Below are positions 4,144 to 23,605 of a stretch of 64,000 bases of DNA, piece after piece; position 1 is the first letter of the stretch, and each line of letters opens with the position of its first letter. Source of the DNA: Thermococcus celer Vu 13 = JCM 8558 (GTDB lineage: Archaea > Methanobacteriota_B > Thermococci > Thermococcales > Thermococcaceae); NCBI RefSeq assembly GCF_002214365.1, contig NZ_CP014854.1, positions 496,001 to 560,000 on the forward strand, in the 5' to 3' direction. A program made the position numbers and the translations under genes. Under the pieces are notes generated by a model. That model was given only the letters and a program-made list of their open reading frames with translations. It was not told the origin of the DNA and did not search any database.

Positions 4144-4175
4144 ATCCCCTCTTCAATCCTTTTCAGGTGAGAATA

Positions 4176-5474
4176 ATGCGCAGGATGCTTCTGATGCTCG
4201 CGGTTCTGTCGCTGTTCGTGGGGCTCGTAAGTGCGGGGACTGTAAAGTACGGAAATCTATCTTTCCACGAGGTCGATAATTCTAAGGAACTTCAGGAACT
4301 CGTTTCATCACACAACGGGGAGTACTTCTTCCTCTTCTACAACTCCCAGACCTGTCCCGCCTGCGGATACATGAAAACGGACGTCTTTCCAACACCAACC
4401 GCCGAAAAGGCGTTGAAAAACCTCGTCCTGGTGTCCATCGACGTTTACAGGGGGCGGGAGATAACAACGCTCCGGTACAGGGTCTACGACCCCGTGCTGG
4501 TCATCCAGCCGGAGAACGCCGGCTACTACAAACCCCAAAAGCCGGGGGAGGAGATAAGCGTCGGCGTTCCCGGGACTCCGACGATGGTGATCTTCAAGGC
4601 CGTCAACGGAACGATGGTCCTTAGAGGAGTGGCCGTCGGTGCCCTGAACCCCCAGGGGCTGGCTTACTTCGTCGATAGGGCAACAGGAGGTGAGATGAAA
4701 AGAACGCCCGCCAGGCCCACCTCGGATACCGGCGGTTCATCAGAACCAAAACCCTCAAACGGGAAGACCAACCTCGGCCTGGCCGTCCTGCTTCCGGTGT
4801 TCTCGGCCGGGATCCTCAGTGTCTTCTCTCCCTGCGTTCTTCCCGTGATAATCGGAACCCTCTCGCTCACATTCGCGAACAGGAACGTAGGAGCCGTAGT
4901 GGCGGGGATGGTCGCGTCCTTCGCCCTTCTCGGTGCCCTCGTTGGTGGTCTCGGGGAGTACGCCGCACAGATACAGGGGGCGCTTTACCTCCTCGGCGGG
5001 CTTGGTTTCATCGTTGTGGGCGCGAGCCTCGTCAGCGAGAGGGTGAGCGAAAGGATAGAGCGTTTTCTCAGCTTCTCCCCAGCGGATGGGGTGGCCAGGA
5101 AGAGGGGATTGGTCTACGATTTCTTCCTCGGCTCCGCGCTGGGGGCAACGTGGCTCGGCTGTATCGCGCCCTACGTGGGCTTTGCCGTTATAACCGCCGC
5201 CCTAAGCAGGAACACGCTGAGCGGGGTAATCGTGATGGGAACCTACGGGCTCGGTATGGGACTGACCGTCTACCTGCTGACGGAATCTAAGGAGCTCGGT
5301 GGGTGGGTAAACAGGAAGTTCCTCTCGGGGAGGCTCTCCCTGAGCGGCGGAGGAAAAGTCAGGTGGGAAATAGCCCTTGGAGTGACACTGATCGCCCTGG
5401 GCTTGCTGATGCTTACGGAGCTCACCCCACTCAAGCTCTGGAGCGGCCTTTTTGAATCGCTCTCTAAGCTGTGA
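4176..5474 (+). CDS. Extracytoplasmic thioredoxin domain fused to CcdA/DsbD membrane domain
   Basis: Thiol-disulfide electron conduit of 432 aa. An N-terminal signal (MRRMLLMLAVLSLFVGLVSA) leads into a thioredoxin-like domain with the CPAC redox motif at about residues 60-63. A polar linker (residues ~170-200) precedes a CcdA/DsbD-type membrane domain. Its first helix carries SVFSPCVLPVIIG (Cys ~218) and the paired Cys is in WLGCIAPYVGF (~328), the two transmembrane cysteines that carry electrons from cytoplasmic thioredoxin. Start: GGTGAG then ATG at 4176; a GTG at 4167 overlaps that RBS. The role is probably to reduce exported disulfides. It stands alone with no cytochrome c genes nearby. 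Confidence 0.85.
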   Translation: MRRMLLMLAVLSLFVGLVSAGTVKYGNLSFHEVDNSKELQELVSSHNGEYFFLFYNSQTCPACGYMKTDVFPTPTAEKALKNLVLVSIDVYRGREITTLRYRVYDPVLVIQPENAGYYKPQKPGEEISVGVPGTPTMVIFKAVNGTMVLRGVAVGALNPQGLAYFVDRATGGEMKRTPARPTSDTGGSSEPKPSNGKTNLGLAVLLPVFSAGILSVFSPCVLPVIIGTLSLTFANRNVGAVVAGMVASFALLGALVGGLGEYAAQIQGALYLLGGLGFIVVGASLVSERVSERIERFLSFSPADGVARKRGLVYDFFLGSALGATWLGCIAPYVGFAVITAALSRNTLSGVIVMGTYGLGMGLTVYLLTESKELGGWVNRKFLSGRLSLSGGGKVRWEIALGVTLIALGLLMLTELTPLKLWSGLFESLSKL

Positions 5475-10055: not shown

Positions 10056-10508
10056 ATGGGGGTTGCTGAAAACGCCCCGGATTTCGTTCTGAAGGATCAG
10101 AAGGGTGAGGACTTTAGACTGAGCGATTTCAGGGGAAAGAAGGTCCTGCTGTCGTTCCATCCACTGGCCTGGACCGGTATATGCGAAAAGCAAATGAAGG
10201 CCCTCGAAGAGAACCACGAGCGCTTTGAGAGGCTCAACGTCGTCCCGGTCGGGATAAGCGTTGATCCCGTGCCGAGCAAGAAAGCCTGGGCCGAGCACAT
10301 GGGACTTAGAAAGCTCAGGATTCTGAGCGATTTCTGGCCGCACGGCGAGGTTGCGAAGCTCTACGGGCTGTTCCGCGAAAAGGAGGGCTTTTCGGAGAGG
10401 GCGAACGTCCTGATAGACGAAGAGGGAAAGGTGGCGTTCTTCAAGGTCTACCCGATAACGGAGGTGCCCGACCTGAAGGAGATATTCACCCTCCTTGAGG
10501 GAGAGTAA
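10056..10508 (+). CDS. Peroxiredoxin, single-cysteine
   Basis: Thiol peroxidase of the AhpC/BCP group, 150 aa. It reduces H2O2 and organic peroxides. The peroxidatic Cys is in FHPLAWTGICEKQM (residue ~47; the usual PxxxTxxC pattern with His-Pro). This is the only Cys in the protein, so recycling needs an external thiol partner. The start ATG has a strong GGAGGTG RBS, while an in-frame extension to 10017 has none. It precedes the flavodiiron protein gene, within the oxygen-defence region. Confidence 0.88.
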   Translation: MGVAENAPDFVLKDQKGEDFRLSDFRGKKVLLSFHPLAWTGICEKQMKALEENHERFERLNVVPVGISVDPVPSKKAWAEHMGLRKLRILSDFWPHGEVAKLYGLFREKEGFSERANVLIDEEGKVAFFKVYPITEVPDLKEIFTLLEGE

Positions 10509-10600
10509 AATCCTTCGAACCGGATTACCCAGCTCTGTCCTTAACCTTCCGTTGGGAAAGCCTTTTTATGCCCCCGCACCAAGTAGGTTCGGTGGTGGAA

Positions 10601-11830
10601 ATGCCGAGGATATGGGTCGAGAAGATACTCGACGAACCCGAACTCTACATAATGAGGATCGATGACGACAGGATAAGGTACTTCGAAGCCACGTGGGACA
10701 TCCCCGAGGGGATAACCTACAACGCCTACCTGATGAAGACGGGCGATGCGGTCGTTCTCTTCGACGCGTGGAAGGGGGAGTACACGGAGGAGTTCCTCGA
10801 GACGCTGAAAAAGCTGGTCGATCCAAAGGAGATAACCCACATCGTAACTCACCACACCGAACCCGACCACAGCGGCGCCATCCCCGCGCTTCTTGAGGCC
10901 AATGGGTACAGGGCCAAACTCATAGGAACCACCTTTGCCAAACGCTTCATGGAGGGCTTCTACGGGAAGAAGGTCGTCGAGAACTTCCACGCCATCAAGG
11001 ACGGCGAGGAGATGCGGATAGGGGGACGGACATTCCGCTTCATAACCGTCCCCTGGCTCCACTGGCCCGACACCATGATAACCTACGTCGTCGAGGACAA
11101 ACTCATCTTCAGTTGCGACGCGGGCGGCGGCTACGGGATGCCCGATGCAATAGACGACAGCGACGAAAAGGTCGTGCAGGAGTACCTGCCCCACGTGACG
11201 AAGTACGTCGTTACTGTCATCGGCCACTATCACAAGTACATCGTCCAGAACATCAAGAAGCTCAGGAGCCTCGGGATAGTCGAGGAGGCGAGGATGATAC
11301 TGCCAGGCCACGGCCTGATATGGCGGAGGAGCCCGACGAGGATATTCGAACACTACGAGGCCATCGGAGCCGGAAAACCGACGAAAGGCAAGGTCCTCGT
11401 CGTATACGACTCCATGTACGGCTTCGTCGAGAAGAGGATGAGGATAGTAATCGAGGAGCTCAAGAAGAACGGCCTTAACCCGGTCGTTTACAGGTTCACG
11501 GACAAGGAGGCACCGGCCGTGAGCGACGTTCTCGGAGAAGTGCCGGACAGCGAGGCTATAGTCATAGGCGCTTCCACCTACGAGGCCGAGATACACCCGA
11601 GGATACGCTACACCCTTTACGAGGTACTCGATAAAGCGAACTACGAGAAGCCCGTCCTCATCGTTGGAGCCTTCGGCTGGGCTGGCGTGGCCGGCAAGAA
11701 GATAGAGACCCTCATCTCGAGGAGCAAGTTCGACCTCGTTGACACCGTCGAGAGCCGCGGCATGCCCACGAAGGAGGACGAGGAGAAGCTCAGGGAAGGC
11801 GTCAGGAAGCTCATCACCTGGCTGGCCTGA
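10601..11830 (+). CDS. Flavodiiron protein (FprA type A flavoprotein)
   Basis: Reduces O2 to water (or NO to N2O) at a diiron site, with FMN in a flavodoxin domain; the electron donor is usually rubredoxin, encoded downstream. It is 409 aa. The N-terminal metallo-beta-lactamase domain has the diiron motif HHTEPDHSGAIP near residue 84, the PWLHWPDTM segment and a Asp in FSCDAGGGYG; GHGLIW is near residue 235. The flavodoxin domain starts near 265 with VVYDSMYGFVEK. Start: ATG at 10601 after GGTGGTGGAA. Domain order and length match the family. Confidence 0.93.
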   Translation: MPRIWVEKILDEPELYIMRIDDDRIRYFEATWDIPEGITYNAYLMKTGDAVVLFDAWKGEYTEEFLETLKKLVDPKEITHIVTHHTEPDHSGAIPALLEANGYRAKLIGTTFAKRFMEGFYGKKVVENFHAIKDGEEMRIGGRTFRFITVPWLHWPDTMITYVVEDKLIFSCDAGGGYGMPDAIDDSDEKVVQEYLPHVTKYVVTVIGHYHKYIVQNIKKLRSLGIVEEARMILPGHGLIWRRSPTRIFEHYEAIGAGKPTKGKVLVVYDSMYGFVEKRMRIVIEELKKNGLNPVVYRFTDKEAPAVSDVLGEVPDSEAIVIGASTYEAEIHPRIRYTLYEVLDKANYEKPVLIVGAFGWAGVAGKKIETLISRSKFDLVDTVESRGMPTKEDEEKLREGVRKLITWLA

Positions 11831-11860
11831 ACCTTTCATTTTTCTCGTTTCCCCAAGTAT

Positions 11861-11869
11861 GCTTAAATA
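11861..11869 (+). promoter_or_regulatory. TATA box of ferritin-like/NROR operon
   Basis: GCTTAAATA sits 41 nt before the ATG at 11903 and follows a T-rich stretch that ends the flavodiiron gene. Confidence 0.5.
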
Positions 11870-11902
11870 CCACGGATAAGATAACTAAGTGTGGTGATGC
11901 GT

Positions 11903-12442
11903 ATGGAAGATATTCTTGAGAAGCTTGCCGGACTTTCCCTCCGGGAAGTGCTGGGCTATGCGATTGCCTCGGAAGAGGGGGCAAGGGACTTTTACACACA
12001 CCTCGCGTCAAAGAGCGGCGCCCTCCTCGGGGAGTTCTTCAGGGACCTCGCCAGGGCCGAGGAGAACCACAAGAGGATACTCCTCCGGCTGTATAGCGGA
12101 CTCTTTGGAGAGGAAGAATACCCCGTCCCAGAGGGGATCCCCCTCGCGGAGACGAGCGTGAAGGTCGATACAGTCGCAAACCTCATAGAGGCCATGAGAG
12201 TTGCCCTCGAGAACGAAAAGAACGCGGAGAGGATCTACTCCCACCTCGCCGAGAGAGTCCCGGAAGAGAGGGGCATATTCAAATTCCTGGCGGCCCAGGA
12301 AAAGGCCCACTATGCGGCAATACGGAGCCATACGGAGTACCTGGAGGACGTGACCCAGGGAGAGGCTGAGTACGTGAACGCGCCGGTTGAGTTCCTCAAC
12401 ACCCAGCTGGAGCTCTACCTCGGCCCTCACACCAGGCCGTGA
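11903..12442 (+). CDS. Rubrerythrin-like ferritin-superfamily protein
   Basis: Ferritin-like four-helix protein of 179 aa with two ExxH-type repeats: EEGARDFYTHLA, RAEENHKRIL, ENEKNAERIYSHLA, and AAQEKAHYAAI. These are the spaced Glu/His ligands expected for a diiron centre. No rubredoxin domain is present. The likely role is peroxide or iron handling, electrons coming from rubredoxin or NROR. The start at 11903 is preceded by GGTGAT; the GTG at 11891 is within the RBS region. It lies 9 nt before the NROR gene and is probably in the same operon. Confidence 0.82.
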   Translation: MEDILEKLAGLSLREVLGYAIASEEGARDFYTHLASKSGALLGEFFRDLARAEENHKRILLRLYSGLFGEEEYPVPEGIPLAETSVKVDTVANLIEAMRVALENEKNAERIYSHLAERVPEERGIFKFLAAQEKAHYAAIRSHTEYLEDVTQGEAEYVNAPVEFLNTQLELYLGPHTRP

Positions 12443-12451
12443 GGTGGTAGT

Positions 12452-13534
12452 GTGGGGGTCGTCGTAGTCGGCAACGGACCCGGTGGCCTCGAGCTGGCGA
12501 AGAACTTAAGCGGAGAATTCGACGTGACCATAGTCGAGAGGGAGAGCCTCCCCGGTTACTCCAAACCGATGCTGAGCCACTACATAGCTGGCTTTATCCC
12601 CGAGGAGAAGCTCTTTCCTTATCCCCTTGACTGGTACGAGAACCGGGGAATAAAACTCCTTCTCGGTACAGAGGCGAGGCTCATCGATAGATCCCGGAAG
12701 GTTCTCGTTACAGATAGAGGTGAGGTGCCCTACGATGCCCTCGTGATAGCGACCGGTGCAAGGGCCCGGGAGCCCTCCGTTCCGGGGGGAGAGTACATCC
12801 TGACGCTCAGAACCCTCAGCGATGCCAAACGGATAAGGGCGCGCCTCGAGGATGAGGGCGAGATAACCGTCCTCGGCGGAGGTTTCATAGCGCTCGAACT
12901 CGCCGGGAACCTCGCCAAAGCTGGCTACACCGTGAAGCTAATTCACAGGGGGAGAACCCTTCTACGCTTGGATGAAGAGCTGAGCGAAATCATAAGGGCG
13001 AGGCTCGAGAACGCTGGAGTCGAGTTCCACCTTGAGACGAGCGTCCTCGGGGCCGACGAGACCGGGCTGAGAACTGATAAAGGCTACATCCCCGGAAGGC
13101 TGAAGGTCTGCGCCTTCGGAATAGTCCCCAACAGGGAACTGGCCGTGAGGAGCGGCATCCACGCCGGCAGGGGAATAATGATTGATGACCACCTTCGGAC
13201 ATCCGCAAAGGACGTCTACGCGGTGGGGGACTGCGCCGAACTTAACGGCTTTATCGGTGGAACGGCCAAGGCGGCCGTGGAGCAGGCGAGGGTTCTCTCG
13301 AGGATACTGAAGGGTGAAGACGAACGTTACGAGCCCTTCCGCTCGGCGTTCTTCAAGTTCGCCGATTTAAACGTCGCCATCATCGGAAAGACGGAGGGGC
13401 GCGGCGAGTGGCTCGATGGGAAGGCCAGGGTTTTCCGCGAGGGGGAAAAAGTCGTTGGAGCCGTCGTTTTCGATGACCTAAGGGAGGCAATGAAGCTCGA
13501 AAGGACCATCAAAGAGGGTTTACCCGTTAACTGA
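12452..13534 (+). CDS. NAD(P)H:rubredoxin oxidoreductase
   Basis: FAD protein that passes electrons from NAD(P)H to rubredoxin, feeding superoxide reductase, rubrerythrin and flavodiiron protein. It is 360 aa, close to the Pyrococcus enzyme. FAD dinucleotide motif [16 protein letters not shown] at the N-terminus; second NAD(P) motif [17 protein letters not shown] near residue 138; FAD-binding [11 protein letters not shown] near 255. GTG start with GAGGTGGTAG before it. A small C-terminal domain is present. Members of this pyridine nucleotide disulfide family can use other partners, but the neighbourhood strongly supports rubredoxin. Confidence 0.88.
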
Positions 13535-13569
13535 ATCAAGGGGTTCATTAAACCTCTGGTTTGGAAAAT

Positions 13570-13579
13570 CGTTATATAC
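13570..13579 (+). promoter_or_regulatory. TATA box of rubrerythrin gene
   Basis: CGTTATATACC, with purine-rich AAAA upstream, lies about 50 nt before the rubrerythrin start. Confidence 0.5.
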
Positions 13580-13624
13580 CCCCTGCACCGAAATACCAAT
13601 GCAACGACTCTGCAGGTGGGACTT

Positions 13625-14140
13625 ATGGTTGTGAAAAAGAAGATGACCCGGAAGTTTCTGGAGGAAGCCTTCGCCGGCGAAAGCATGGCCCACATGAGGT
13701 ACCTCATCTTCGCAGAGCAGGCGGAGAGGGAAGGGTTCCCCAACATAGCCAAGCTCTTCAGGGCCATCGCCCACGCCGAGTTCGTCCATGCCAAGAACCA
13801 CTTCAGGGCCTTGGGAAACATCGGGAAGACCCCCGAGAACCTTCAGGCGGGCATTGACGGCGAGACCTACGAGGTCGAGGAGATGTACCCCGTCTTCCAC
13901 AACGCCGCCGAGTTCCAGGGCGAGAAGGAAGCGGTTAGGACGACCCACTACGCCCTCGAGGCGGAGAAGATACACGCCGGGCTCTACGCCAGGGCCAAAG
14001 AGATGGCCGAGAGCGGGAAGGACGTCGAAATAAAGAAGGTCTACATCTGCCCCGTTTGCGGATACACCGCCGTTGACGAGGCCCCCGAGTACTGCCCGGT
14101 CTGCGGGGCACCAAGGGACAAGTTCGTGGTCTTCGAGTGA
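13625..14140 (+). CDS. Rubrerythrin
   Basis: Peroxide reductase of anaerobes, 171 aa. The N-terminal diiron four-helix domain has FAGESMAHMRYLIFA and AIAHAEFVHAKNHF (first ExxH), then MYPVFHNAAEFQ and YALEAEKIHAGLY (second ExxH). The C-terminal rubredoxin-like domain has two CPVCG knuckles (CPVCGYTAVDEAPEYCPVCG, residues ~143-163). Start ATG at 13625 with AGGTGGG. It heads the rubrerythrin-rubredoxin-SOR group. Confidence 0.95.
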   Translation: MVVKKKMTRKFLEEAFAGESMAHMRYLIFAEQAEREGFPNIAKLFRAIAHAEFVHAKNHFRALGNIGKTPENLQAGIDGETYEVEEMYPVFHNAAEFQGEKEAVRTTHYALEAEKIHAGLYARAKEMAESGKDVEIKKVYICPVCGYTAVDEAPEYCPVCGAPRDKFVVFE

Positions 14141-14160
14141 ACTTTTCGCTTTTTCATTTC
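14141..14160 (+). terminator. T-rich terminator after rubrerythrin
   Basis: Three T runs (CTTTTCGC, TTTTTC, ATTTC) follow the stop and precede a new TATA box; archaeal transcription commonly ends in such T-rich tracts. Confidence 0.4.
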
Positions 14161-14176
14161 TCGGGTTTGAGGCGCA

Positions 14177-14188
14177 AACCTTATAAGG
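14177..14188 (+). promoter_or_regulatory. TATA box of rubredoxin-superoxide reductase operon
   Basis: AAACCTTATAAG matches BRE/TATA and lies about 35-40 nt before the rubredoxin ATG. Confidence 0.6.
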
Positions 14189-14220
14189 TTGGACTAATAA
14201 CATTAGGGTGGTGAAAGGAA

Positions 14221-14382
14221 ATGGCCAAGTGGAAATGCATAGTCTGTGGATACATCTACGACGAGGACGAGGGCGACCCCGACAGTGGGATCGAGCCCGG
14301 AACCAAGTTCGAGGACCTCCCTGACGACTGGGTCTGCCCGCTCTGCGGGGCCCCGAAGGACATGTTTGAAAAGATAGAGTGA
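14221..14382 (+). CDS. Rubredoxin
   Basis: Small one-iron electron carrier of 53 aa. It starts [20 protein letters not shown] and has a second knuckle [13 protein letters not shown], giving the four Cys (CxxCG ... CPxCGAP) that bind iron. RBS GGTGGTGAAAGG precedes the ATG. It overlaps the leader of the superoxide reductase gene, and should donate electrons to it and to the flavodiiron protein and rubrerythrin, itself reduced by NROR. Confidence 0.96.
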
Positions 14383-14392
14383 GGTGGTGGAG

Positions 14393-14740
14393 ATGCTGAG
14401 CGGAACCATAAAGAGTGGTGATTGGACCGGGGAGAAGCACGTCCCCGTTATAGAGTACGAGAAGGAGGGGGACCTCGTCAAGGTCGAGGTTCAGGTCGGC
14501 AAGGAGATACCGCACCCGAACACCCCCGAGCACCACATCGCATGGATAGAGCTCTACTTCCACCCCGAGGACGGAAACTTCCCGATACTCGTCGGCAGGG
14601 CCGAGTTCACGAACCACACCGACCCGCTCACCGAGCCGAGGGCGGTCTTCTTCTTCAGGACTGGCAAGAAGGGCAAGCTCCAGGCCCTGAGCTACTGCAA
14701 CATCCACGGCCTCTGGGAGAACGAGGTCGCGCTCGAGTGA
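14393..14740 (+). CDS. Superoxide reductase (neelaredoxin type)
   Basis: Reduces superoxide to H2O2 at a mononuclear Fe(His)4Cys centre. The product is 115 aa, one domain, without the desulforedoxin N-terminus. Ligands visible: E and H in TGEKHVPVIEY (~14-16), HPNTPEHHIAWIEL (~41-48) and CNIHG near residue 103. Start ATG at 14393 after GAGGTGGTGGAG. It sits 10 nt after rubredoxin, its reductant, in a classic anaerobic superoxide-defence operon. Confidence 0.95.
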   Translation: MLSGTIKSGDWTGEKHVPVIEYEKEGDLVKVEVQVGKEIPHPNTPEHHIAWIELYFHPEDGNFPILVGRAEFTNHTDPLTEPRAVFFFRTGKKGKLQALSYCNIHGLWENEVALE

Positions 14741-16185: not shown

Positions 16186-16707
16186 ATGGTTCCAGAACTT
16201 GATGAGGGGCTTCCCCTCGAGAGGATTAAGGACTTCTCCCTTGAGGAACTCCTCGGGATGGCCATAAAGGCCGAGATAGGCGCCAGGAAGTTCTACGAAA
16301 GCCTCGCCGAGAGGATTGATATCGAGGCCCTGAAGGAGAAGATCCAGTGGCTGGCAGGGGAGGAGGGCAAACACGAGGCCCTGCTGAGGAGGATGTACGG
16401 GACGATGTTCCCGGGGAAGGAAGTCGTCTTCCCGAAGGAGCACATAGGGCCCGAACTGAGACCCGTCGCCAGGGAGCTCCATGGCGTACAGGACATCATA
16501 GACCTCATCCGCTGGGCCATGAAGGCCGAGGAGATAGCCGCCCACTTCTACGAGGAGCTTGAGAAGATAGTTGACACGGAGGAGAAGAAGAGGCTCATGC
16601 GCTACCTCAGCGACATGGAGAAGGGCCACTACTACACCCTCAGGGCGGAGTACGAGCTCCTCCTCGACTGGGAGATGTACGGCCAGATGATGCACGTCGG
16701 CCCGTGA
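16186..16707 (+). CDS. Rubrerythrin-like ferritin-superfamily protein
   Basis: Product of 173 aa with two helix-pair repeats: KAEIGARKFYESLAERI, LAGEEGKHEALLRRMYG, KAEEIAAHFYEELEKI and LSDMEKGHYYTLRAEYELL. The Glu/ExxH pattern is that of a diiron ferritin-like domain; no rubredoxin domain. Start ATG at 16186 after GAGGAGGGATAACT. The C-terminus ends EMYGQMMHVGP, where an intrinsic hairpin terminator overlaps the stop codon. It could be a peroxidase or iron sequestration protein. It resembles the proteins at 11903 and 17667. Confidence 0.8.
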   Translation: MVPELDEGLPLERIKDFSLEELLGMAIKAEIGARKFYESLAERIDIEALKEKIQWLAGEEGKHEALLRRMYGTMFPGKEVVFPKEHIGPELRPVARELHGVQDIIDLIRWAMKAEEIAAHFYEELEKIVDTEEKKRLMRYLSDMEKGHYYTLRAEYELLLDWEMYGQMMHVGP

Positions 16708-16720
16708 TCGGGCGTTTTTT
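16700..16720 (+). terminator. Hairpin plus T-run terminator
   Basis: GCCCG (16700-16704), loop TGAT, CGGGC (16709-16713), then G and six T. The stem overlaps the stop of the ferritin-like gene, and the T run gives a clear end to the 14.8-16.7 kb operon. Confidence 0.65.
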
Positions 16721-16781
16721 GAATTTTATCGAAATTTTGTAAACCGTGAACCATCTAAGGAAAATTTTAAAGAAGAGCGGT

Positions 16782-17225
16782 TCACTCTTTATACTTCGCT
16801 ATCAGCTCGGCCAGAATCCTGTGGTGCTCCCTCTCGTTCTCGACGAGAGCCTCGGCGATACCCTTGAAGAGCGGGTGGGTCATCTTCTCGGCCATCTTCT
16901 GGTAAGTTTTTATCATGTCCTTCTCTATCTCGAGGTGCATCTCGGCGAAGCGCTTGACGAGGGCCCTCTGCTCTGGGGTGAGCTCCACCTCCTTAAGCTC
17001 TGAAACGGCCCCTTCTCCGGCGAGCTTCTCCAGCTCCTTTTGGGCCTCCAGAATGGCCTGCATCAGGTGCTTGTGGATCACCGTGTCGACCGCTATCCTG
17101 CCGACGCCCTCCTCTACCTTCGTATACCTGAGACCCTGCCCTCGGATGAGGCCGAGCCCATCGGTGTAGCTCGCGGCGGCCTTCTTTTCTATCTCGTAGG
17201 CCTTCTTAACAAGGGGTTCAACCAT
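16782..17225 (-). CDS. Ferritin-like domain protein
   Basis: Product of 147 aa, highly helical. Segments KAYEIEKKAAASYTDGL, AVDTVIHKHLMQAI, EMHLEIEKDMIKTYQKMAEK and LVENEREHHRIL give the ferritin-like Glu/His spacing, though the first ligand set is less canonical than in the neighbours. The start at 17225 has GGTGATG six nt before it; in-frame GTG/ATG codons further upstream lack an RBS. Transcribed opposite to the preceding operon. The function is probably iron or peroxide related; not assigned further. Confidence 0.72.
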   Translation of the reverse strand: MVEPLVKKAYEIEKKAAASYTDGLGLIRGQGLRYTKVEEGVGRIAVDTVIHKHLMQAILEAQKELEKLAGEGAVSELKEVELTPEQRALVKRFAEMHLEIEKDMIKTYQKMAEKMTHPLFKGIAEALVENEREHHRILAELIAKYKE

Positions 17226-17349
17226 GGACATCACCATAACCATATGAACATCGAACCCTAATAACGTTTTTCATTGGCCACAACGGTTCATCAAGATGAG
17301 TTCAATGGACGGGAATCGAAGGAACGGCACAGAAAAGGGAAGGGAGAGC

Positions 17350-17652
17350 TCACAGTTCAACCTTTATGCCCGTCTCCTCCTCGACTTCCTTAAAGCCGCC
17401 CTTCATGTACCTCGCGAGCTCCTCGTCGACGGTGAAGAGGGCCGCAAGGAACTCCCCAAAGTGCTCCTTCTCCTCGTTGGCAACGTCGTGGAAGATGTGC
17501 CTTATCCTCTCGTCCTCTATGTGATCGGCCAGCTGTTCATAGAAGCTTATCGCGTCGAGCTCCGCCTCAACGGCCCAGCGCAGGGCCTGGGCGATCTCCC
17601 TCTTTGAGAGGGGCCTGTCCTTCGGGAGTTCAAAGGGGTACTTCGCGAGCAT
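17350..17652 (-). CDS. EncFtn-like ferritin domain protein without encapsulin shell
   Basis: Product of 100 aa. REIAQALRWAVEAELDAISF, YEQLADHIEDERIRHIF and VANEEKEHFGEFLAAL carry the E...ExxH arrangement of encapsulated ferritins. KGGFKEVEEETGI matches, from memory, the N-terminal ferritin-like domain of the Pyrococcus furiosus virus-like-particle/encapsulin protein. Here the frame stops right after that domain (ETGIKVEL) and no HK97-fold shell protein follows anywhere in the window. Start at 17652 follows GGGAGGTGATACC; upstream codons to 17706 would overlap the neighbour. It is 14 nt downstream of the 17667-18146 gene, so the two form an operon. EncFtn proteins oxidise iron but need a cage to store it. 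Confidence 0.75.
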   Translation of the reverse strand: MLAKYPFELPKDRPLSKREIAQALRWAVEAELDAISFYEQLADHIEDERIRHIFHDVANEEKEHFGEFLAALFTVDEELARYMKGGFKEVEEETGIKVEL

Positions 17653-17666
17653 GGTATCACCTCCCA

Positions 17667-18146
17667 TCAGTCCACCTCGAGGCTGAAGTCCTGGTAGTCC
17701 ATCCATATGCCCGTCTTCATGACGGCGTCGTACTGGGCCTTCAGGAGCTCGTAGTGGGCCTTCTCAACCTTAGCCAGCTCCTCGAAGACCCGCCTTACTG
17801 CCTCGTGCTCCGCCTCCTTCGCCGCCCCCTCATAGAACTCCCACGTGAGCTTTTCCTGCTCCATCCCTATCTTCACCGCGTCGACCTCGCTCAGGCTCTC
17901 CCCGTCCGTGCCGGGGACGAGCTTCTCCAGCATGGCCTTATCAACGGCCGGGAGCTCGCACTCTTCCACGAGCTTCTCGACGAACTTCTCCTCGAAGATG
18001 TCCCAGTGCTCCGCCTCCTGCCCCGCGAGGAACAGGAACATCTTCCTCGCCCTCTCGTCCTTCGCCCTCTTCGCGAGCTTTATGTAGAAGTTGAGCTCCG
18101 CCTTCTCAACCTCGAGTGCCAGGGCCAGTGCCTCAAGTTCGTTCAT
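17667..18146 (-). CDS. Rubrerythrin-like ferritin-superfamily protein
   Basis: Product of 159 aa starting MNELEALALALEVEKAELNF. Repeated motifs EVEKAELNFYIKLAKRA, LAGQEAEHWDIFEEKF, GMEQEKLTWEFYEGAAKEA and LAKVEKAHYELLKAQY are typical diiron ferritin-like helices. RBS GGTGATACC precedes the ATG at 18146; reading frames extending upstream cross the divergent promoter and are unlikely. First gene of a two-gene operon with the EncFtn-like gene. Confidence 0.8.
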   Translation of the reverse strand: MNELEALALALEVEKAELNFYIKLAKRAKDERARKMFLFLAGQEAEHWDIFEEKFVEKLVEECELPAVDKAMLEKLVPGTDGESLSEVDAVKIGMEQEKLTWEFYEGAAKEAEHEAVRRVFEELAKVEKAHYELLKAQYDAVMKTGIWMDYQDFSLEVD

Positions 18147-18200
18147 GGTATCACCAAAAGGTTTTAGCCCCCCTGGCCTAATTAACCTTTGGGGGTAAAG

Positions 18201-18728
18201 GTGAGGATCGAACGGGTGGAGGAGCCACTGGCCCTCAAGGAGGAACTGGTTCACTTCGTCTTCCGCGTCTACCGCGGGACGGGTGGCGCTTACCCAGCGC
18301 TGGAGTGGGTGGAGGAAAAGCCCTCCGTGGACGACTTCGAGGGATTCAGGAAAGTGTACGAGCCCTTCCTGGAGTTCCGGCTCGGGAAGGAGTTCGATGA
18401 GCTCTACATCCTGAGGGACAACGAAGGGAAGATAGCGGGAACGGTGGCCCTCGTCTACAACCTCGAGGGGAAGGACATCCCGTGGGTGCCCGAGGAGATA
18501 AAGAACGAGAGAACCGGGCTGATAGAGTTCTTCATGGTCGACCCAGCCTATCAGGGCAAGGGCTACGGCTCAAAACTCCTCGAGTTCGCCGTGAGAAGGT
18601 TAAAAGCTCTCGGCAAGACCCCCTACGTGGTAACCTTCCCGGAGCTTGAGGCTTATTCATACTATATGAAGAAGGGCTTCATCAAGGTGATGGACTACAA
18701 GGAGTTTGTTGTTCTGAAAAAGGGTTAA
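18201..18728 (+). CDS. GNAT-family N-acetyltransferase
   Basis: Product of 175 aa. The acetyl-CoA binding signature is IEFFMVDPAYQGKGYGSKLLEFAVRRLKALG (Q/RxxGxG/A type, QGKGYG near residue 118). The C-terminus ends in EAYSYYMKKGFIKVMDYKEFVVL, the usual GNAT tail. The start is GTG at 18201 preceded by GGGGGT. A TTG at 18189 is possible but overlaps the RBS. Substrate unknown. It is divergent from the ferritin-like operon and convergent with the broken b561-like gene. Confidence 0.85.
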   Translation: MRIERVEEPLALKEELVHFVFRVYRGTGGAYPALEWVEEKPSVDDFEGFRKVYEPFLEFRLGKEFDELYILRDNEGKIAGTVALVYNLEGKDIPWVPEEIKNERTGLIEFFMVDPAYQGKGYGSKLLEFAVRRLKALGKTPYVVTFPELEAYSYYMKKGFIKVMDYKEFVVLKKG

Positions 18729-18745: not shown

Positions 18746-19102
18746 TTACCCGAGAACGAAAAGGTATAACCCCAGAGCTATCTGAAGGAAAAGAAGCAGG
18801 ATAGCGGAGAGGGCGATAGCCCTGTGGGTGTTCCTGGAGAGCTTCCCTTTCAGGAAAAGCTTCCCGCTGAACGCCGTCAGGACCACGTAGGCGTAGATCA
18901 CAAGCCCAAGGGCTCAGTGGGGTGTGCGAACGCCCCCAACGGTGTACAGCATGTAGGCGACTCCGATGGTCAGCAGGAGAACCGCACTGTAAACCATCAG
19001 GTGGTGCACCTTAAGCCTGTGGTCACGGGCGTAGTACGCACCCAGCAGGAAGAGGAGGAGGGCGGAGATCTGGACTATCGCGTGAACCTGGAAGGGCTCC
19101 AT
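18746..19102 (-). pseudogene. Cytochrome b561-like membrane protein with in-frame TGA
   Basis: One continuous frame except for a TGA at 18914-18916. The N-terminal part is MEPFQVHAIVQISALLLFLL to VGGVRTPH. After the TGA the frame continues ALGLVIYAYVVLTAFSGKLF and ends LQIALGLYLFVLG at 18746. Without the TGA it would be 118 aa with four membrane helices and His residues in VHAIVQ, VHHLMVY, TPH and THRAIA suited to haem b. A TGG (Trp) to TGA change at RTPH-W-ALGL is the simplest cause. The RBS GGAGGG suits the ATG at 19102. The gene overlaps the end of the DOMON gene. Either a recent nonsense mutation or a sequencing error. Confidence 0.75.
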
Positions 19103-19104
19103 CG

Positions 19105-19748
19105 TCATCCCTCCAGGGTTAATTTGCCGTATCCCTTGGCGATGTTGTGCTTCGCAGTGAAATCGTCCGAATCGGCCATGGCGTAGATGAACTTCACGGT
19201 CTTCCCGGGCGTTAGTACCTTGTCGTATTTATCCCCCGTGTTGAGCTTCCTCTTGAACTCTATGACGGTGTAGCCGTTCTCCTCCCTTCCGGCTTTTTCG
19301 AGTATGTCGTCACTTCCCCCGAGCTTTGTATCGGGAGGATGCGGGCCGTAGGTTCCGGTGGAGTACGCATCGATCACGACTACCCCTCCATCCTGAACCC
19401 ACCGATTACCATGTCAGCGTCCTTCATGGCGTAACTCGGCTCAAAGCCAATCGCAACCCAGCCCGTTGTTTTTCCCTTAAGAGCCATGTAGAGGTACTCA
19501 CCGTCGTTCCTCCAGTAAACCTCCAGCTTTCCTTCCGCCAGTGAAAGGCTGCGGGAGTATTCGTTGGCCCCGATAACCCCGTCGGTCTTCCAGGGGGAGA
19601 GCGCCTTAGTAACCGGGGGTGTATTTGTCCCGGTGGTTGGTGTAGTGGTCTGCGCCGTGGCCGGCGTAGTGCTCGACTGTGAACTCCCCATGCACCCCGC
19701 CACCAGAACCACCAACAGCAGGGCAAATATTGGGAATACCTTCTTCAT
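19105..19748 (-). pseudogene. DOMON-domain lipoprotein, frameshifted
   Basis: The first part (19380-19748) is a lipoprotein signal, MKKVFPIFALLLVVLVAGCMG, a Thr-rich linker, and the start of a DOMON beta-sandwich (YLYMALKGKTTGWVAIGFEP, DADMVIGGFRMEG). It stops at TAG. The rest, VVVIDAYSTGTYGPHPPDTK through FIYAMADSDDFTAKHNIAKG and ending at 19105, is in the next frame. Adding one G to the GGGG run at 19382-19385 joins the two into a normal DOMON domain of about 214 aa. DOMON domains bind haem or sugars and often pair with cytochrome b561. ATG at 19748 has AGGTGA; GTG at 19757 is less likely. Confidence 0.8.
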
Positions 19749-19801
19749 GCAATTCACCTGATTCGTTCTTTGTCTTTATTCTACTTAAGATTTTCCATTT
19801 G

Positions 19802-19841
19802 TGTTACATTTGTACCCAATTTATACCCAAATAATGTAACA
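19802..19841. promoter_or_regulatory. Inverted repeat operator in divergent promoter region
   Basis: TGTTACATT (19802-19810) and AATGTAACA (19833-19841) are perfect 9-bp inverted arms. Between them are two direct copies of TACCCAA (19813-19819, 19824-19830) 11 bp apart. The element lies between the divergent DOMON operon and the secreted-repeat operon, just upstream of the latter's TATA box. Candidate binding site for the ArsR-type regulator encoded at 21178. Confidence 0.6.
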
Positions 19842-19855
19842 TAACTAAAAAATAC

Positions 19856-19866
19856 TTTTATATTAA
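19856..19866 (+). promoter_or_regulatory. TATA box of the secreted-repeat operon
   Basis: CTTTTATATTA lies about 40 nt before the ATG at 19901, directly beside the inverted repeat. Confidence 0.6.
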
Positions 19867-19900
19867 TAAAACGAATAGTTCCACGAAGGAGATGTTAAGA

Positions 19901-21139
19901 ATGAACGAAAAGTTTTGGGCAATGCTTGTTGTGGGCCTCGTGATCGGGGGTCTCCTCGGCTACGGGCTCGCGCCCAAGGGAGTAAGCCAGGCCGAGTACC
20001 AGAGCGTCGAGAAGAAGGTCTCGGACCTTCAGAGTCAGCTCAGCGACCTTCAGGGAAAGGTTCAGGACTATCAAAGCCAGGTAAACCAGCTCCAGAGCGA
20101 GGTTTCGAAGTATAAAGCCGAAGCAATGGCCCTCGAAAACAGGAACTACACCGTGATGATAGCCTACGACGGGAAGGTCGGTTACTACCTCACCGACGGC
20201 AACGGTCGGACCCTCTACTACTTCGCAAAGGACGTGCCCGGCTCGGGCAAAAGCGCCTGTTACGGGGCATGCGCAGAGAAGTGGCCCGTATTCTACACGG
20301 ACAAGCTCGTTCTTCCGCAGGGCCTGAAGGCCAGCGACTTCTCGGTGATAACGAGGGAAGACGGCAAAAAGCAACTCGCCTACAAAGGATGGCCGCTCTA
20401 CTACTTCTTCAAGGACGAAAAAGCCGGCGACATAAACGGTGAGGGAGTTAAAGGTGTCTGGTTCGTGATGAAGCCCGACTACACGCTGATGATAGCCTAC
20501 AAGGAGGGTATAGGGACCTACTTCGTTGACCCGAAGGGGATGGCACTCTACTACTTCGCAAAGGACGTAAACGGGAGCAGCGTCTGCTACGGTGACTGCG
20601 CCCAGAAGTGGCCTACATTCGGTCCGGAGCACGTCTCGGTGCCATCAACGCTCGACTTGGCGGACTTCAGCTACGTTGAGAGGGAAGACGGAACCTATCA
20701 GCTGGCATACAAAGGATGGCCGCTCTACTACTTCTTCAAAGACGAGAAACCCGGGGACACCAACGGCGAGGGCGTCAAGGACGTCTGGTACGTCATGAAA
20801 CCGGACTACGCCGTGATGATAGCATATAAGGAAGGCCTCGGAACGTACCTAACCGACGACGAAGGCAGAACGCTCTACTACTTCGCCAAGGACTCGGTTA
20901 ATATGAGTGCGTGCACGGGTGGATGCCTGGAGAAGTGGCCGCCATTTTACAGGGCGAACCCGGTTGCCCCGTCGGTCATCCGGGGATACTTCGGGGAGCT
21001 CGACGCCAACGGCACGAAGTTCACGACCTTCAGGGGCTACCCGCTCTACTACTTCTTCAAGGACGCGAGGAGGGGTGAGACGAACGGACAGGGTGTAAAG
21101 GACGTCTGGTTCGTCGTGGATCCGTTCAACTTCCCGTGA
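19901..21139 (+). CDS. Membrane-anchored protein with three secreted-repeat (YxxD-type) domains
   Basis: Product of 412 aa. An N-terminal membrane anchor (FWAMLVVGLVIGGLLGYGLA) is followed by a coiled coil (~residues 30-75, LQSQLSDLQGKVQDY heptads). Three tandem copies of about 110 aa follow. Each has a TLYYFAKD-like strand, a CxxxC(A/L)EKWP motif (CYGACAEKWP, CYGDCAQKWP, CTGGCLEKWP, near residues 117, 227, 335) and a GWPLYYFFKDEKPGDTNGEG-type motif ending in KDVWYVM. This matches the secreted repeat family (PF03640) of bacterial lipoproteins linked to electron transfer; function unproven. Start ATG 19901 fits the GGAG spacing better than ATG 19892. Probably a surface redox or ligand-binding protein. 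Confidence 0.82.
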   Translation: MNEKFWAMLVVGLVIGGLLGYGLAPKGVSQAEYQSVEKKVSDLQSQLSDLQGKVQDYQSQVNQLQSEVSKYKAEAMALENRNYTVMIAYDGKVGYYLTDGNGRTLYYFAKDVPGSGKSACYGACAEKWPVFYTDKLVLPQGLKASDFSVITREDGKKQLAYKGWPLYYFFKDEKAGDINGEGVKGVWFVMKPDYTLMIAYKEGIGTYFVDPKGMALYYFAKDVNGSSVCYGDCAQKWPTFGPEHVSVPSTLDLADFSYVEREDGTYQLAYKGWPLYYFFKDEKPGDTNGEGVKDVWYVMKPDYAVMIAYKEGLGTYLTDDEGRTLYYFAKDSVNMSACTGGCLEKWPPFYRANPVAPSVIRGYFGELDANGTKFTTFRGYPLYYFFKDARRGETNGQGVKDVWFVVDPFNFP

Positions 21140-21177
21140 GCCAAACCTTTATTTATTTTTTAATTAAACAATGAAAC

Positions 21178-21468
21178 ATGGACAGAGACCTCAGAAACCT
21201 CATCCTGTGGCTCTTCGTGGGATCAAAGGGCGGGCCGACCCGGGCAAGGATTCTCTTCCTGATAAGAGAATCGCCGATGAACGTTCATAGAATAGCCAAG
21301 GAGCTTGAGCTCAACTACCGAACCGTCAAGTACCACCTGGAGCTGATGCGGGAGCACGGCATCGTCGAAAGGGTCGGGAACGATTACGGGGCCATATACG
21401 TGCCGAGCGAGGTTGTGGAGAAGAACTGGGGAGAGATAGAATCCATATTAAGGAGGAATGGTCTATGA
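21178..21468 (+). CDS. ArsR-type winged-helix transcription regulator
   Basis: Product of 96 aa. RARILFLIRESPMNVHRIAKELELNYRTVKYHLELMREHGIVERV is a winged helix-turn-helix (residues ~22-66), followed by the wing NDYGAIYVPSE. No obvious metal-binding Cys cluster. The gene starts at an ATG about 38 nt after the repeat protein, with TTTATTTA upstream. It overlaps the next gene by 4 nt. It is the likely local regulator of this redox locus. Confidence 0.85.
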   Translation: MDRDLRNLILWLFVGSKGGPTRARILFLIRESPMNVHRIAKELELNYRTVKYHLELMREHGIVERVGNDYGAIYVPSEVVEKNWGEIESILRRNGL

Positions 21469-21746
21469 TGGGACCTTACTGGATCGGGAACATATTCATA
21501 GTCTTAATTGAACTCGCACTGGCCCTCATGCTACTCAGGAACTACCACCCCCTGAGGAGAACGGGGATAGGGAAGAGACTCTTCGGGGTGGCCCTCGTCT
21601 TCGTCTTCCAGAGCATCCTGGCGATAGTCTTCTACGTCCACTGGGCCGAGATGGGGTTTGGAAAGAGCGTCGCCGGGCCGTTGCTCGTCCTCTCGCTGAG
21701 CGGCCTGGTTGGAGTTGGATTACTCTATTCGATATCGAGGATGTGA
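21465..21746 (+). CDS. Small membrane protein (3 TM)
   Basis: Product of 93 aa with three hydrophobic helices: GNIFIVLIELALALMLL, VALVFVFQSILAIVFYV and LLVLSLSGLVGVGLLYSI. RBS GGAGGAATGG precedes the ATGATG. Overlaps the regulator gene by 4 nt. Unknown family; one His in the second helix region (YVHWAEMGFG). It may be part of the membrane electron path or a sensor partner of the regulator. Confidence 0.7.
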   Translation: MMGPYWIGNIFIVLIELALALMLLRNYHPLRRTGIGKRLFGVALVFVFQSILAIVFYVHWAEMGFGKSVAGPLLVLSLSGLVGVGLLYSISRM

Positions 21747-21750
21747 GGTT

Positions 21751-22332
21751 ATGAGAAAAGAAATCTTTGCAGTTCTGGTTCTTCTCCTCCTGCTCGGCGG
21801 TACCTACCTGTTCAAGGGCGGGGGAGAAAAATCCGGGAACGATAATACTAACCCTCCTGACCAGATGACGGGGGTTATTCAGGTTACGGGACTGGTCGAG
21901 AAACCCTACAACGTAACCTACGAGGGGCTCTCAAAGCTCCCCTCGCGGGAAGTTAACGCGCCGCTCTACTGCGTCGGTGCGCCGGGAAAGGTACTGAAAA
22001 ACGGAACCTGGAAGGGCGTTCCGTTGAAGACCCTGCTTGAGCTTGCGAAGCCGACCGGAGGGGCGTTCAAGGTGGCCCTCTACGCGAGTGATGGCTACAC
22101 GACCGACTTCTACTTCGACACAGTGATGAGGGAGGAGGACATAATCGTGGCCTACGAGTTCAACGGCAAGCCGATAACGCCGAGGGTGGTAGCTCCTAAC
22201 AGGTGGGGCTACAAGTGGATAAAGGGCCTCACCAGGATCGAGCTCGTGAGCTACGACTTCAAGGGCACGTGGGAGAGCTCGGGTTATCCTGACGATGCCC
22301 GCATAACCGGGGACTCATCGCCGGGCAGGTGA
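21751..22332 (+). CDS. Exported sulfite-oxidase-fold molybdopterin-binding protein
   Basis: Product of 193 aa. N-terminal signal/anchor EIFAVLVLLLLLGGTYLF, then a compact molybdopterin oxidoreductase domain (PF00174 type). IQVTGLVEKPYNVTYEGLSK, the Cys in NAPLYCVGAPG (candidate Mo-ligand Cys, ~residue 72), WKGVPLKTLLELA, VALYASDGYTTDFYF and RVVAPNRWGYKWIKGLTRIEL are all family features. Start ATG 21751 has GAGGTT; the upstream in-frame codon at 21709 lies inside the previous gene. Downstream partner is a small His-containing membrane protein, resembling molybdo-protein/haem membrane pairs. Confidence 0.8.
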   Translation: MRKEIFAVLVLLLLLGGTYLFKGGGEKSGNDNTNPPDQMTGVIQVTGLVEKPYNVTYEGLSKLPSREVNAPLYCVGAPGKVLKNGTWKGVPLKTLLELAKPTGGAFKVALYASDGYTTDFYFDTVMREEDIIVAYEFNGKPITPRVVAPNRWGYKWIKGLTRIELVSYDFKGTWESSGYPDDARITGDSSPGR

Positions 22333-22336
22333 GGGC

Positions 22337-22678
22337 ATGAGGGCAAAAACGGCCGTGGCGATAGTTGAGTGGACCTCCCTTCCTTTGCTTCTCTTTGCGG
22401 GGCTCATGGTGATAAGCGGCTACGGGCTGACGAGCGAAGCGGCGAGGAACGCCTCCCTCGGCCTTTTGACATTCTCCCGCTCCCGGGTCATCCACCTGAG
22501 CAGGATGGCAAGGCTGAGCTTCGTCTCCCTCCTCCTGCTCCACACCTACGCGGGGACGGAGATACTGGCGAAGAAGGTGGAGAAAAGCAACGGAAGGCTC
22601 GCGAGACTCGTGGAGTACTCCGTGCTCGCCTTCCTGCTCTACGTCGGCTGGATAGTGTTTAACGGGGAGCTTGACTGA
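22337..22678 (+). CDS. Small membrane protein, possible cytochrome b-like partner
   Basis: Product of 113 aa with three hydrophobic helices (EWTSLPLLLFAGLMVISGYG; LSFVSLLLLHTYAGTEIL; YSVLAFLLYVGWIVFNG). Two His (SRVIHLSRMARL and LLLLHTYAG) about 17 residues apart could ligate haem b. RBS GGTGAGGGC. It follows the molybdopterin-fold gene by 4 nt and closes the operon. By analogy to MsrP/MsrQ and sulfite-oxidase membrane partners it may carry electrons through the membrane; this is inference. Confidence 0.65.
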   Translation: MRAKTAVAIVEWTSLPLLLFAGLMVISGYGLTSEAARNASLGLLTFSRSRVIHLSRMARLSFVSLLLLHTYAGTEILAKKVEKSNGRLARLVEYSVLAFLLYVGWIVFNGELD

Positions 22679-22699: not shown

Positions 22700-23224
22700 T
22701 CAGAAGTTGAAGTTTATGTCCTTCATCAGCTGGTCGTAGAACTCCTCCCTGTAGACGTCCGGGTAGCGGGTTATGTAGTCGTACTGCTTGCGGAGGATGT
22801 TGTAGTGGTTCCGTTCCATGTCCGCGAGCATCTCGAGGAGGAGCTTCGTCTTCTCGGTGGCGGCGTAGCCGGCGAGCTCCCTGTAGAGCTTCTCGCTGAC
22901 GAGCTCGGCCTCCATGGCTATCTCGTAGATCTCGTCGAGGTTGACGTCGGGCTTCTTAATGGCCTCGGCCATCTTCTCCGCTACCACCTTGAACTCCGCC
23001 ATGACGTCTATCTCTATCTTCCGGGGTTCAGCCTTCTCACCCTCGAACCTCTCGGCCATCCTCTCGACTATCTGGCGGTGTTTGTCCTCCTCCTTCGCCA
23101 GAAAGAGAAGCTCGTCCCTTATGATGTCGCTCTTGGTCAGCGAGGCGAGTTTTTCGTAGGCCTCCTTGGCCCTTATCTCGGAGTTTACGGCAATCTCAAA
23201 AACTTCCTTGTCCGTCACTTCCAT
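22700..23224 (-). CDS. Rubrerythrin-like ferritin-superfamily protein
   Basis: Product of 174 aa. NSEIRAKEAYEKLASLT, LAKEEDKHRQIVERMAERF, AMEAELVSEKLYRELAGY and LADMERNHYNILRKQYDYI give two Glu/ExxH repeats of a diiron four-helix bundle. No rubredoxin domain. ATG at 23224 has GGTGATT. Convergent with the redox operon. Eighth ferritin-like gene in the window. Confidence 0.82.
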   Translation of the reverse strand: MEVTDKEVFEIAVNSEIRAKEAYEKLASLTKSDIIRDELLFLAKEEDKHRQIVERMAERFEGEKAEPRKIEIDVMAEFKVVAEKMAEAIKKPDVNLDEIYEIAMEAELVSEKLYRELAGYAATEKTKLLLEMLADMERNHYNILRKQYDYITRYPDVYREEFYDQLMKDINFNF

Positions 23225-23605
23225 CAAGAATCACCGTTACATTATACGCGCGGGGGAATATTAATCTTTTGGAACAATTCTGGAACGTCTTTTAGACGGA
23301 TGGAGGCTTCTATAGGGACAGGAGGCTGACATAATAACGTTAATCCAACAAAAAATTGACTAAACGTCTAAAAATTCTGGGATAGGTTATTAAATCCTTC
23401 CAGCCTACGGGCACCGATGGGGGTAAACGAGATGTTCCGGAAAAAGACGACGGTTGGAAAGGACTTTGGGGAGTTAAAGGCGAGGTTCCTTACCCTACCC
23501 GCCCTTTCGGTGAGCTACCGCCATCATTGACTCTTCTGAAACTTCGTTAACCCCGGATAACCCAGTTGCGGCGTGTTCTGTGGACAAAAATCAGGAGGGG
23601 TTAGT
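23225..23605. promoter_or_regulatory. Intergenic region and long leader of the his operon
   Basis: Divergent promoter region of 381 bp. It has a CGTCT-TTT-AGACG palindrome at 23286-23298 and a related ACGTCTA at 23365. A TATA-like element (GGTTATTAAATCC, 23387-23398) implies transcription from about 23420, leaving a leader of some 185 nt before hisZ, long for an archaeal mRNA. Inside it a 37-codon frame (23417-23530) starts ATGGGGGTAAACGAG and ends in SYRHH-stop; see finding. No RBS clearly precedes it. Confidence 0.5.

Follow-up and report, generated by a model that had tools for sequence, protein, structure and literature searches.

We have analyzed a divergent cluster of seven genes in the archaeon Thermococcus celer Vu 13, at positions 18746-22678 of a stretch of 64,000 nucleotides (nt) that we call the window (positions 496001-560000 of the genome, G000, a single contig of 1,866,819 bases). 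The left arm, on the minus strand, comprises genes for a DOMON-domain lipoprotein and a four-helix membrane protein (4TM). The right arm, on the plus strand, encodes a PF03640 repeat protein, an ArsR-type regulator, a three-helix membrane protein of 93 amino acids (aa), a sulfite-oxidase-fold (SUOX) protein and a second protein with three transmembrane helices (3TM). All seven genes and their divergent arrangement are present as described in an earlier reading made from the sequence alone (the sequence-only reading). The explanation that we consider best, with confidence a little short of even, is that they form an accessory, modular extracytoplasmic redox island, linked to reactive oxygen species, in the oxygen-defence region of the Thermococcales, and that its modules are independent and not parts of one fixed complex. 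In T. celer the DOMON-4TM module is a pair of pseudogenes, probably of recent origin; the five genes of the right arm are intact.

We prefer this explanation because one relative, G047, keeps the seven-gene order intact, and because PF03640, SUOX and a two-histidine 3TM gene share a contig of a metagenome-assembled genome (MAG). All 28 genomes with strong SUOX matches have its 3TM partner, and all nine with the 93-aa protein have SUOX. The island adjoins genes for superoxide reductase, rubrerythrin, NAD(P)H:rubredoxin oxidoreductase, flavodiiron protein and peroxiredoxin, and has rubrerythrin-like flanks in most loci read. It is further favored by a single operator-like motif per genome, by fusion of PF03640 to plastocyanin in Bacillus sp. 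FJAT-27264, by invariant CxxxC motifs, DOMON Met and His and 4TM His residues, and by decay in several genomes.

The distribution of the genes was compared across 94 Thermococcales genomes. PF03640 was found in 7 and the 93-aa protein in 9, strong matches to SUOX in 28 and to its 3TM partner in 29, and the DOMON-4TM module in 23 (counted by 4TM). Weaker SUOX fragments in three further genomes are probably other PF00174 proteins. In G047 all seven genes are intact and colinear with the window, and since the same order recurs there at 67-77% identity (tblastn) the layout is not due to chance. DOMON-4TM stands opposite SUOX-3TM with no PF03640 in G001, G068 and G069; in G046 the right arm is present but DOMON is not; DOMON-4TM alone is found in G025 and others; and in G074 about 95 kb separate SUOX-3TM from the PF03640 module. 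Two MAGs of the Desulfurococcales (L123 and L124) carry PF03640-ArsR-3TM alone. On a MAG contig labelled Candidatus Bipolaricaulota (L122), a label that is unverified (either it may be wrong or the genes may have been transferred), PF03640 is followed by SUOX (PF00174, E = 4e-45) and then by the two-histidine 3TM (hidden Markov model, E = 7.5e-9).

Decay affects each module. Both left-arm genes are broken in G028, and DOMON is broken in G069 (by a stop codon) and G084; in G055 and G089 the 4TM gene has no DOMON neighbor. SUOX is disrupted in G001 (frameshift), G013 (TAA) and G031 (TAG), and has lost its 5′ part in G037 and G076. Relics of PF03640 and its 3TM neighbor are found in G080. Each of the three modules that make up the locus has its own history of gain, loss and breakage, for the most part at a single site. 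The sequence-only reading had joined all seven genes into one membrane electron-transfer or repair system, and had made this depend on their co-occurrence beyond T. celer. The genes do co-occur, in the genomes compared and on the MAG contig, and the divergent promoter contains an operator-like motif. However, the modules are often apart, PF03640-ArsR-3TM is alone in the Desulfurococcales MAGs, and the left arm of T. celer is dead. A single system is thus partly supported for intact relatives and unsupported for T. celer.

In the majority of loci read, the modules have rubrerythrin-like genes and a GNAT gene on one side and one further rubrerythrin-like gene on the other. Five rubrerythrin-like genes flank the island in the window (16186-18254 and 22700-23227) and are conserved across the Thermococcales. 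An oxygen-defence cluster with a complete superoxide-reduction set lies about 4 kb away, and its genes match those described for oxygen detoxification in T. onnurineus (PMC4463584). The GNAT-rubrerythrin interval is insertion-prone. Five relatives, those with a fully read interval, have an ABC-transporter operon between the 3TM and rubrerythrin-like genes (L072 8772-11726, and also L080, L092, L093 and L099); it is absent from the window. In G001 the same site holds an MscS channel and a large exported protein. Could the interval simply be a hotspot that collects unrelated accessory cassettes, the three modules having no functional link? The other cassettes at the site would fit, as would the occurrence of each module alone, the 95-kb separation in G074 and the repeated decay. 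Yet PF03640, SUOX and 3TM are together on a contig whose label names another phylum, no Thermococcales genome has the 93-aa protein without SUOX, and a single operator-like motif occupies the promoter between the arms. We consider this explanation rather unlikely.

Turning to the individual proteins, family assignments were made using Pfam, and NCBIfam was also searched; the three small membrane proteins fall below every Pfam family cut-off. The repeat protein contains six PF03640 half-repeats, i.e., three domains (E = 1.5e-82; 271 bits against a gathering cut-off of 24.4), and matches NCBIfam SCO0930_lipo above cut-off (E = 1.9e-86). Each domain has a CxxxC motif (CYGAC, CYGDC and CTGGC), as had been noted before; the accompanying EKWP is exact in two domains and is QKWP in the other. 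CxxxC and WP are invariant across an alignment of 45 domains. The protein shares its repeated domain with the SCO0930/PF03640 lipoproteins (COG4315), but differs from them in its three domains, in its coiled-coil membrane anchor and in being one of a trio, together with ArsR and 3TM genes. The number of domains is two or three among relatives (L079 and L073, compared with window 19892-21139), and the true start of the T. celer gene may be an in-frame ATG at 19901. AlphaFold2 gave a confident model of a single domain (pLDDT 95), for which no analogue was found in the PDB (best E = 1.0, TM about 0.17); matches to solved structures by sequence were chance coiled coils, and were rejected. In Bacillus sp. 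FJAT-27264 the repeats are fused to a plastocyanin-type copper domain (PF00127, E = 1.1e-13; L125:7314-8948). The PF03640 stalk may serve the SUOX-fold protein as a redox partner, a substrate or a sensor, based on cysteines or on a metal.

The regulator matches HTH_5/ArsR (E = 1.3e-10), in keeping with its earlier assignment. It is a protein of 96 aa, and the NCBIfam metalloregulator model scores below cut-off. Whereas ArsR/SmtB metalloregulators have metal-binding cysteine sites, it has no cysteine at all, and is therefore not a classical metal sensor. The 93-aa protein bears a weak likeness, below cut-off, to PF16926 (E = 3e-4), the membrane part of histidine kinases in archaea. A 26-nt motif, TGTWACATTYRTACCYAATTTRTACC, is conserved upstream of the PF03640 gene in six aligned loci. 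Allowing up to three mismatches, it occurs once per genome in 7/7 PF03640-bearing genomes and in 0/5 others, and the reversed pattern used as a control gave no matches. Of the five motif-free genomes, two (G050 and G056) have the 93-aa gene, but next to a contig end, which leaves the promoter outside the assembly read; in G060 the motif is found upstream of DOMON, at a contig end. The ArsR-like protein may bind this motif. Coupled to the membrane through its overlapping three-helix partner, it would control the divergent promoter by way of the single 26-nt operator.

It is possible, if again rather improbable, that PF03640, ArsR and the 93-aa protein make up a self-contained surface sensor, in which the stalk senses redox state or a metal, the 93-aa protein relays the signal, and the divergent promoter is autoregulated by the ArsR-like protein. 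The trio without SUOX or DOMON in the Desulfurococcales MAGs would be explained in this way, and the overlap of the ArsR stop with the start of the 93-aa gene, the regulator without cysteine, the weak histidine-kinase likeness and the single motif per genome are all consistent with it. Against this, PF03640 is found without the regulator both beside SUOX on the MAG contig and in the plastocyanin fusion, suggesting that it has a redox role of its own.

The SUOX-fold protein matches PF00174 (E = 4e-23), confirming its previous assignment. Cys74, which would correspond to the molybdenum-ligand cysteine of MsrP, is invariant in 23 sequences. The partner 3TM protein, for which a confident structure is predicted (pLDDT 94.6), has just two invariant histidine residues, H53 and H69; the alignment thus bears out the spaced histidines seen earlier, with a separation of 16 residues. 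In the redox island that we favor, the 3TM protein would hold haem b, probably as a dimer, and would link the membrane to the anchored SUOX-fold protein by electron transfer. The latter may act on an oxidized surface substrate in the manner of MsrP-MsrQ, and the island may be connected to oxidative damage. A thioredoxin-like domain joined to an apparent CcdA/DsbD-type membrane part is encoded at 4167-5474 of the window, and could possibly supply reductant outward. Relatives of the 3TM partner outside the Thermococcales were not found in the other genomes of the phylum searched.

The proposed pair resembles MsrPQ in having a SUOX-fold protein with a conserved cysteine, probably extracytoplasmic, paired with a histidine-bearing membrane protein. 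It differs in that the SUOX-fold protein is short, with no twin-arginine motif in any of the N-termini examined, and the partner has three helices. The closest solved structures to the SUOX part are of the SorA/SorAB type (profile E = 2.5e-18), but in contrast to SorAB-type sulfite dehydrogenases the operon has no c-type cytochrome subunit and the protein is about half the length. The SUOX-fold proteins appear to be exported although TatC was not found in G000, G047, G070 and G074.

A number of observations weigh against a redox island of this kind. DOMON-4TM and SUOX-3TM each often occur without the other, and since unrelated cassettes share the site the proximity of the modules may partly reflect an insertion hotspot. 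Fisher tests of co-occurrence gave p = 4e-23 for SUOX with 3TM, 6e-6 for the 93-aa protein with SUOX, 3e-5 for the 93-aa protein with 4TM and 3e-4 for SUOX with 4TM, values that overstate the evidence because the genomes are related and the tests ignore phylogeny. In a Foldseek search with the 3TM protein the best matches were SdhD-type three-helix haem anchors, and were not significant (E = 1.4). The search for TatC was negative in the four genomes named above, using a control that detects it in 11/14 genomes, and the MsrQ-type domain Ferric_reduct (PF01794) gave no match in the same four. When three Thermococcales SUOX sequences were aligned with a bacterial relative, all lacked its EHGFPL stretch, leaving a gap of six residues beside a conserved arginine. 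Taken with the missing TatC and Ferric_reduct, this makes a loaded extracellular molybdo- or tungstoenzyme doubtful, and the label of molybdoenzyme is weakened on these sequence grounds. The MsrPQ-like pair of the sequence-only reading is accordingly no more than an analogy.

What might the left arm do where it is intact? Alignment of 18 intact relatives of 4TM shows that His 7, 28, 33, 34, 62 and 93 are invariant, such that each of the four core helices, as judged from sequence, has one conserved histidine (H7, H33/34, H62 and H93). Cytochrom_B561 is matched weakly by 13/18 of these proteins, and DUF420 by 16/18. M103 and H196 of DOMON are invariant in 16 intact relatives; such a Met/His pair is the haem-type signature of CYBDOM and of cellobiose dehydrogenase (PMC10691727, PMC10784544). 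The likeness to CYBDOM (cytochrome b561 with DOMON, as in HYP1, CRR and SDR2) that had been drawn for T. celer therefore stands at the level of the ligands in intact relatives, and fails in T. celer itself, where both reading frames are broken. DOMON and b561 are moreover fused in CYBDOM, but are two adjacent genes in the relatives, where DOMON is a lipoprotein and the b561-like part has four helices. In intact relatives DOMON and 4TM would provide a haem wire of their own, resembling CYBDOM and controlled by the same operator. They might even be the two halves of a CYBDOM that reduces ferric or cupric ions on the outward side, in the service of iron handling near ferritin-like genes. The ligands shared with CYBDOM ferric reductases (PMC10784544, PMC10691727), the weak Cytochrom_B561 matches and the nearby rubrerythrin-like genes are compatible with this. 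We nevertheless think it unlikely; it cannot apply to T. celer, and the flanking proteins are rubrerythrin-like and not proven iron stores.

In T. celer the DOMON gene is recognized (PF03351, E = 2e-26) when its two frames are joined. Compared with seven aligned relatives, e.g., ATCGGATGGGTTC, the window has one base fewer (ATCGG-TGGGTTC), splitting the gene into two open reading frames (ORFs). The 4TM gene has an in-frame TGA where most of seven aligned relatives have GGN, encoding a glycine after an invariant histidine; recoding as selenocysteine or tryptophan was rejected, as most relatives encode glycine there. A whole-genome search found 4TM once, with its one internal TGA, DOMON only as the two pieces, and no intact second copy of either. 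Sequencing error is argued against by the two types of lesion in adjacent genes with open neighbors. Apart from the lesions the sequences look constrained (where not saturated, dN/dS is 0.10-0.16; a relaxed-selection test gave no clear signal), and their loss is therefore probably recent. The sequence-only reading had treated this arm as functional; with its putative haem-electron-carrier pair knocked out, the machine that it proposed cannot work in T. celer as described. Programmed frameshifting with stop-codon readthrough, or assembly errors, could in principle leave the arm functional, and both genes are conserved outside the lesions (dN/dS about 0.10-0.13 against G047), but this is very improbable given two independent lesion types in adjacent genes among neighbors that read through, a TGA that stands for glycine and not tryptophan or cysteine, and similar decay arising independently in other genomes. 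Any study of the left arm needs an intact relative, G047 for example, and not T. celer. Coordinates are collected in Table 1.

Table 1. Features of the island and its surroundings (window positions)
Feature	Position	Strand	Basis
Four-helix b561-like membrane protein, pseudogene (in-frame TGA)	18746..19108	-	Full-length match with one TGA; relatives GGN; conserved His
Nonsense lesion, TGA for conserved Gly after third conserved His	18914..18916	-	Nucleotide alignment, seven relatives
DOMON-domain lipoprotein, pseudogene, two frames (19380-19757 and 19105-19377)	19105..19757	-	ORFs; PF03351 when joined; alignment
One-base deletion site (between these bases, plus-strand numbering)	19401..19402	-	Alignment with relatives
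26-nt operator-like motif TGTTACATTTGTACCCAATTTATACC, divergent intergenic region	19802..19827	+	Genome motif search; alignment of loci
Membrane-anchored coiled coil with three PF03640 domains, invariant CxxxC	19892..21139	+	ORF, Pfam, 45-domain alignment
ArsR/HTH_5-type regulator without cysteines	21178..21468	+	ORF, Pfam
93-aa three-helix membrane protein, start overlaps ArsR stop; putative sensor partner	21465..21746	+	ORF, Pfam, relatives search
N-anchored sulfite-oxidase-fold (PF00174) protein with conserved Cys	21751..22332	+	Pfam, alignment, profile match to solved structures
3TM protein, invariant His pair spaced by 16 residues; may anchor haem b	22337..22678	+	Alignment, predicted structure
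GNAT acetyltransferase, island boundary, conserved flank	18201..18728	+	Locus comparison
Rubrerythrin-like gene, island boundary, conserved flank	22700..23227	-	Pfam, locus comparison
Oxygen-defence cluster (peroxiredoxin, flavodiiron, rubrerythrin-like, NAD(P)H:rubredoxin oxidoreductase, rubrerythrin, superoxide reductase)	10059..14740	+	

Searches of the open literature (subscription papers were outside our scope) found nothing on DOMON in Thermococcus, on archaeal DOMON-b561 pairs or on the function of PF03640, and no description of this combination of genes, in agreement with the sequence-only reading, which knew of none in archaea. A bolder and distinctly speculative proposal, which we hold to be unlikely as it stands, is that PF03640-SUOX-3TM serves hyperthermophiles as a hitherto undescribed system for redox or repair outside the cytoplasm, in which a two-histidine 3TM haem anchor takes the place of MsrQ, with no Tat export and with a dedicated, membrane-coupled ArsR switch. 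PF03640 is widespread, and a compact locus that connects it with a SUOX-fold protein, a haem-anchor candidate, an operator-like motif and oxygen defence makes its function directly testable. A review of methionine sulfoxide reductases in archaea points out that MsrA/B are mostly missing from hyperthermophiles, in which an enzyme still to be discovered may take their place (PMC6211008). SUOX-3TM, present in about 30% of the Thermococcales genomes searched, is a candidate for that enzyme. If the proposal were true, PF03640-SUOX-3TM could be a missing methionine-sulfoxide or surface-damage repair system of hyperthermophilic archaea.

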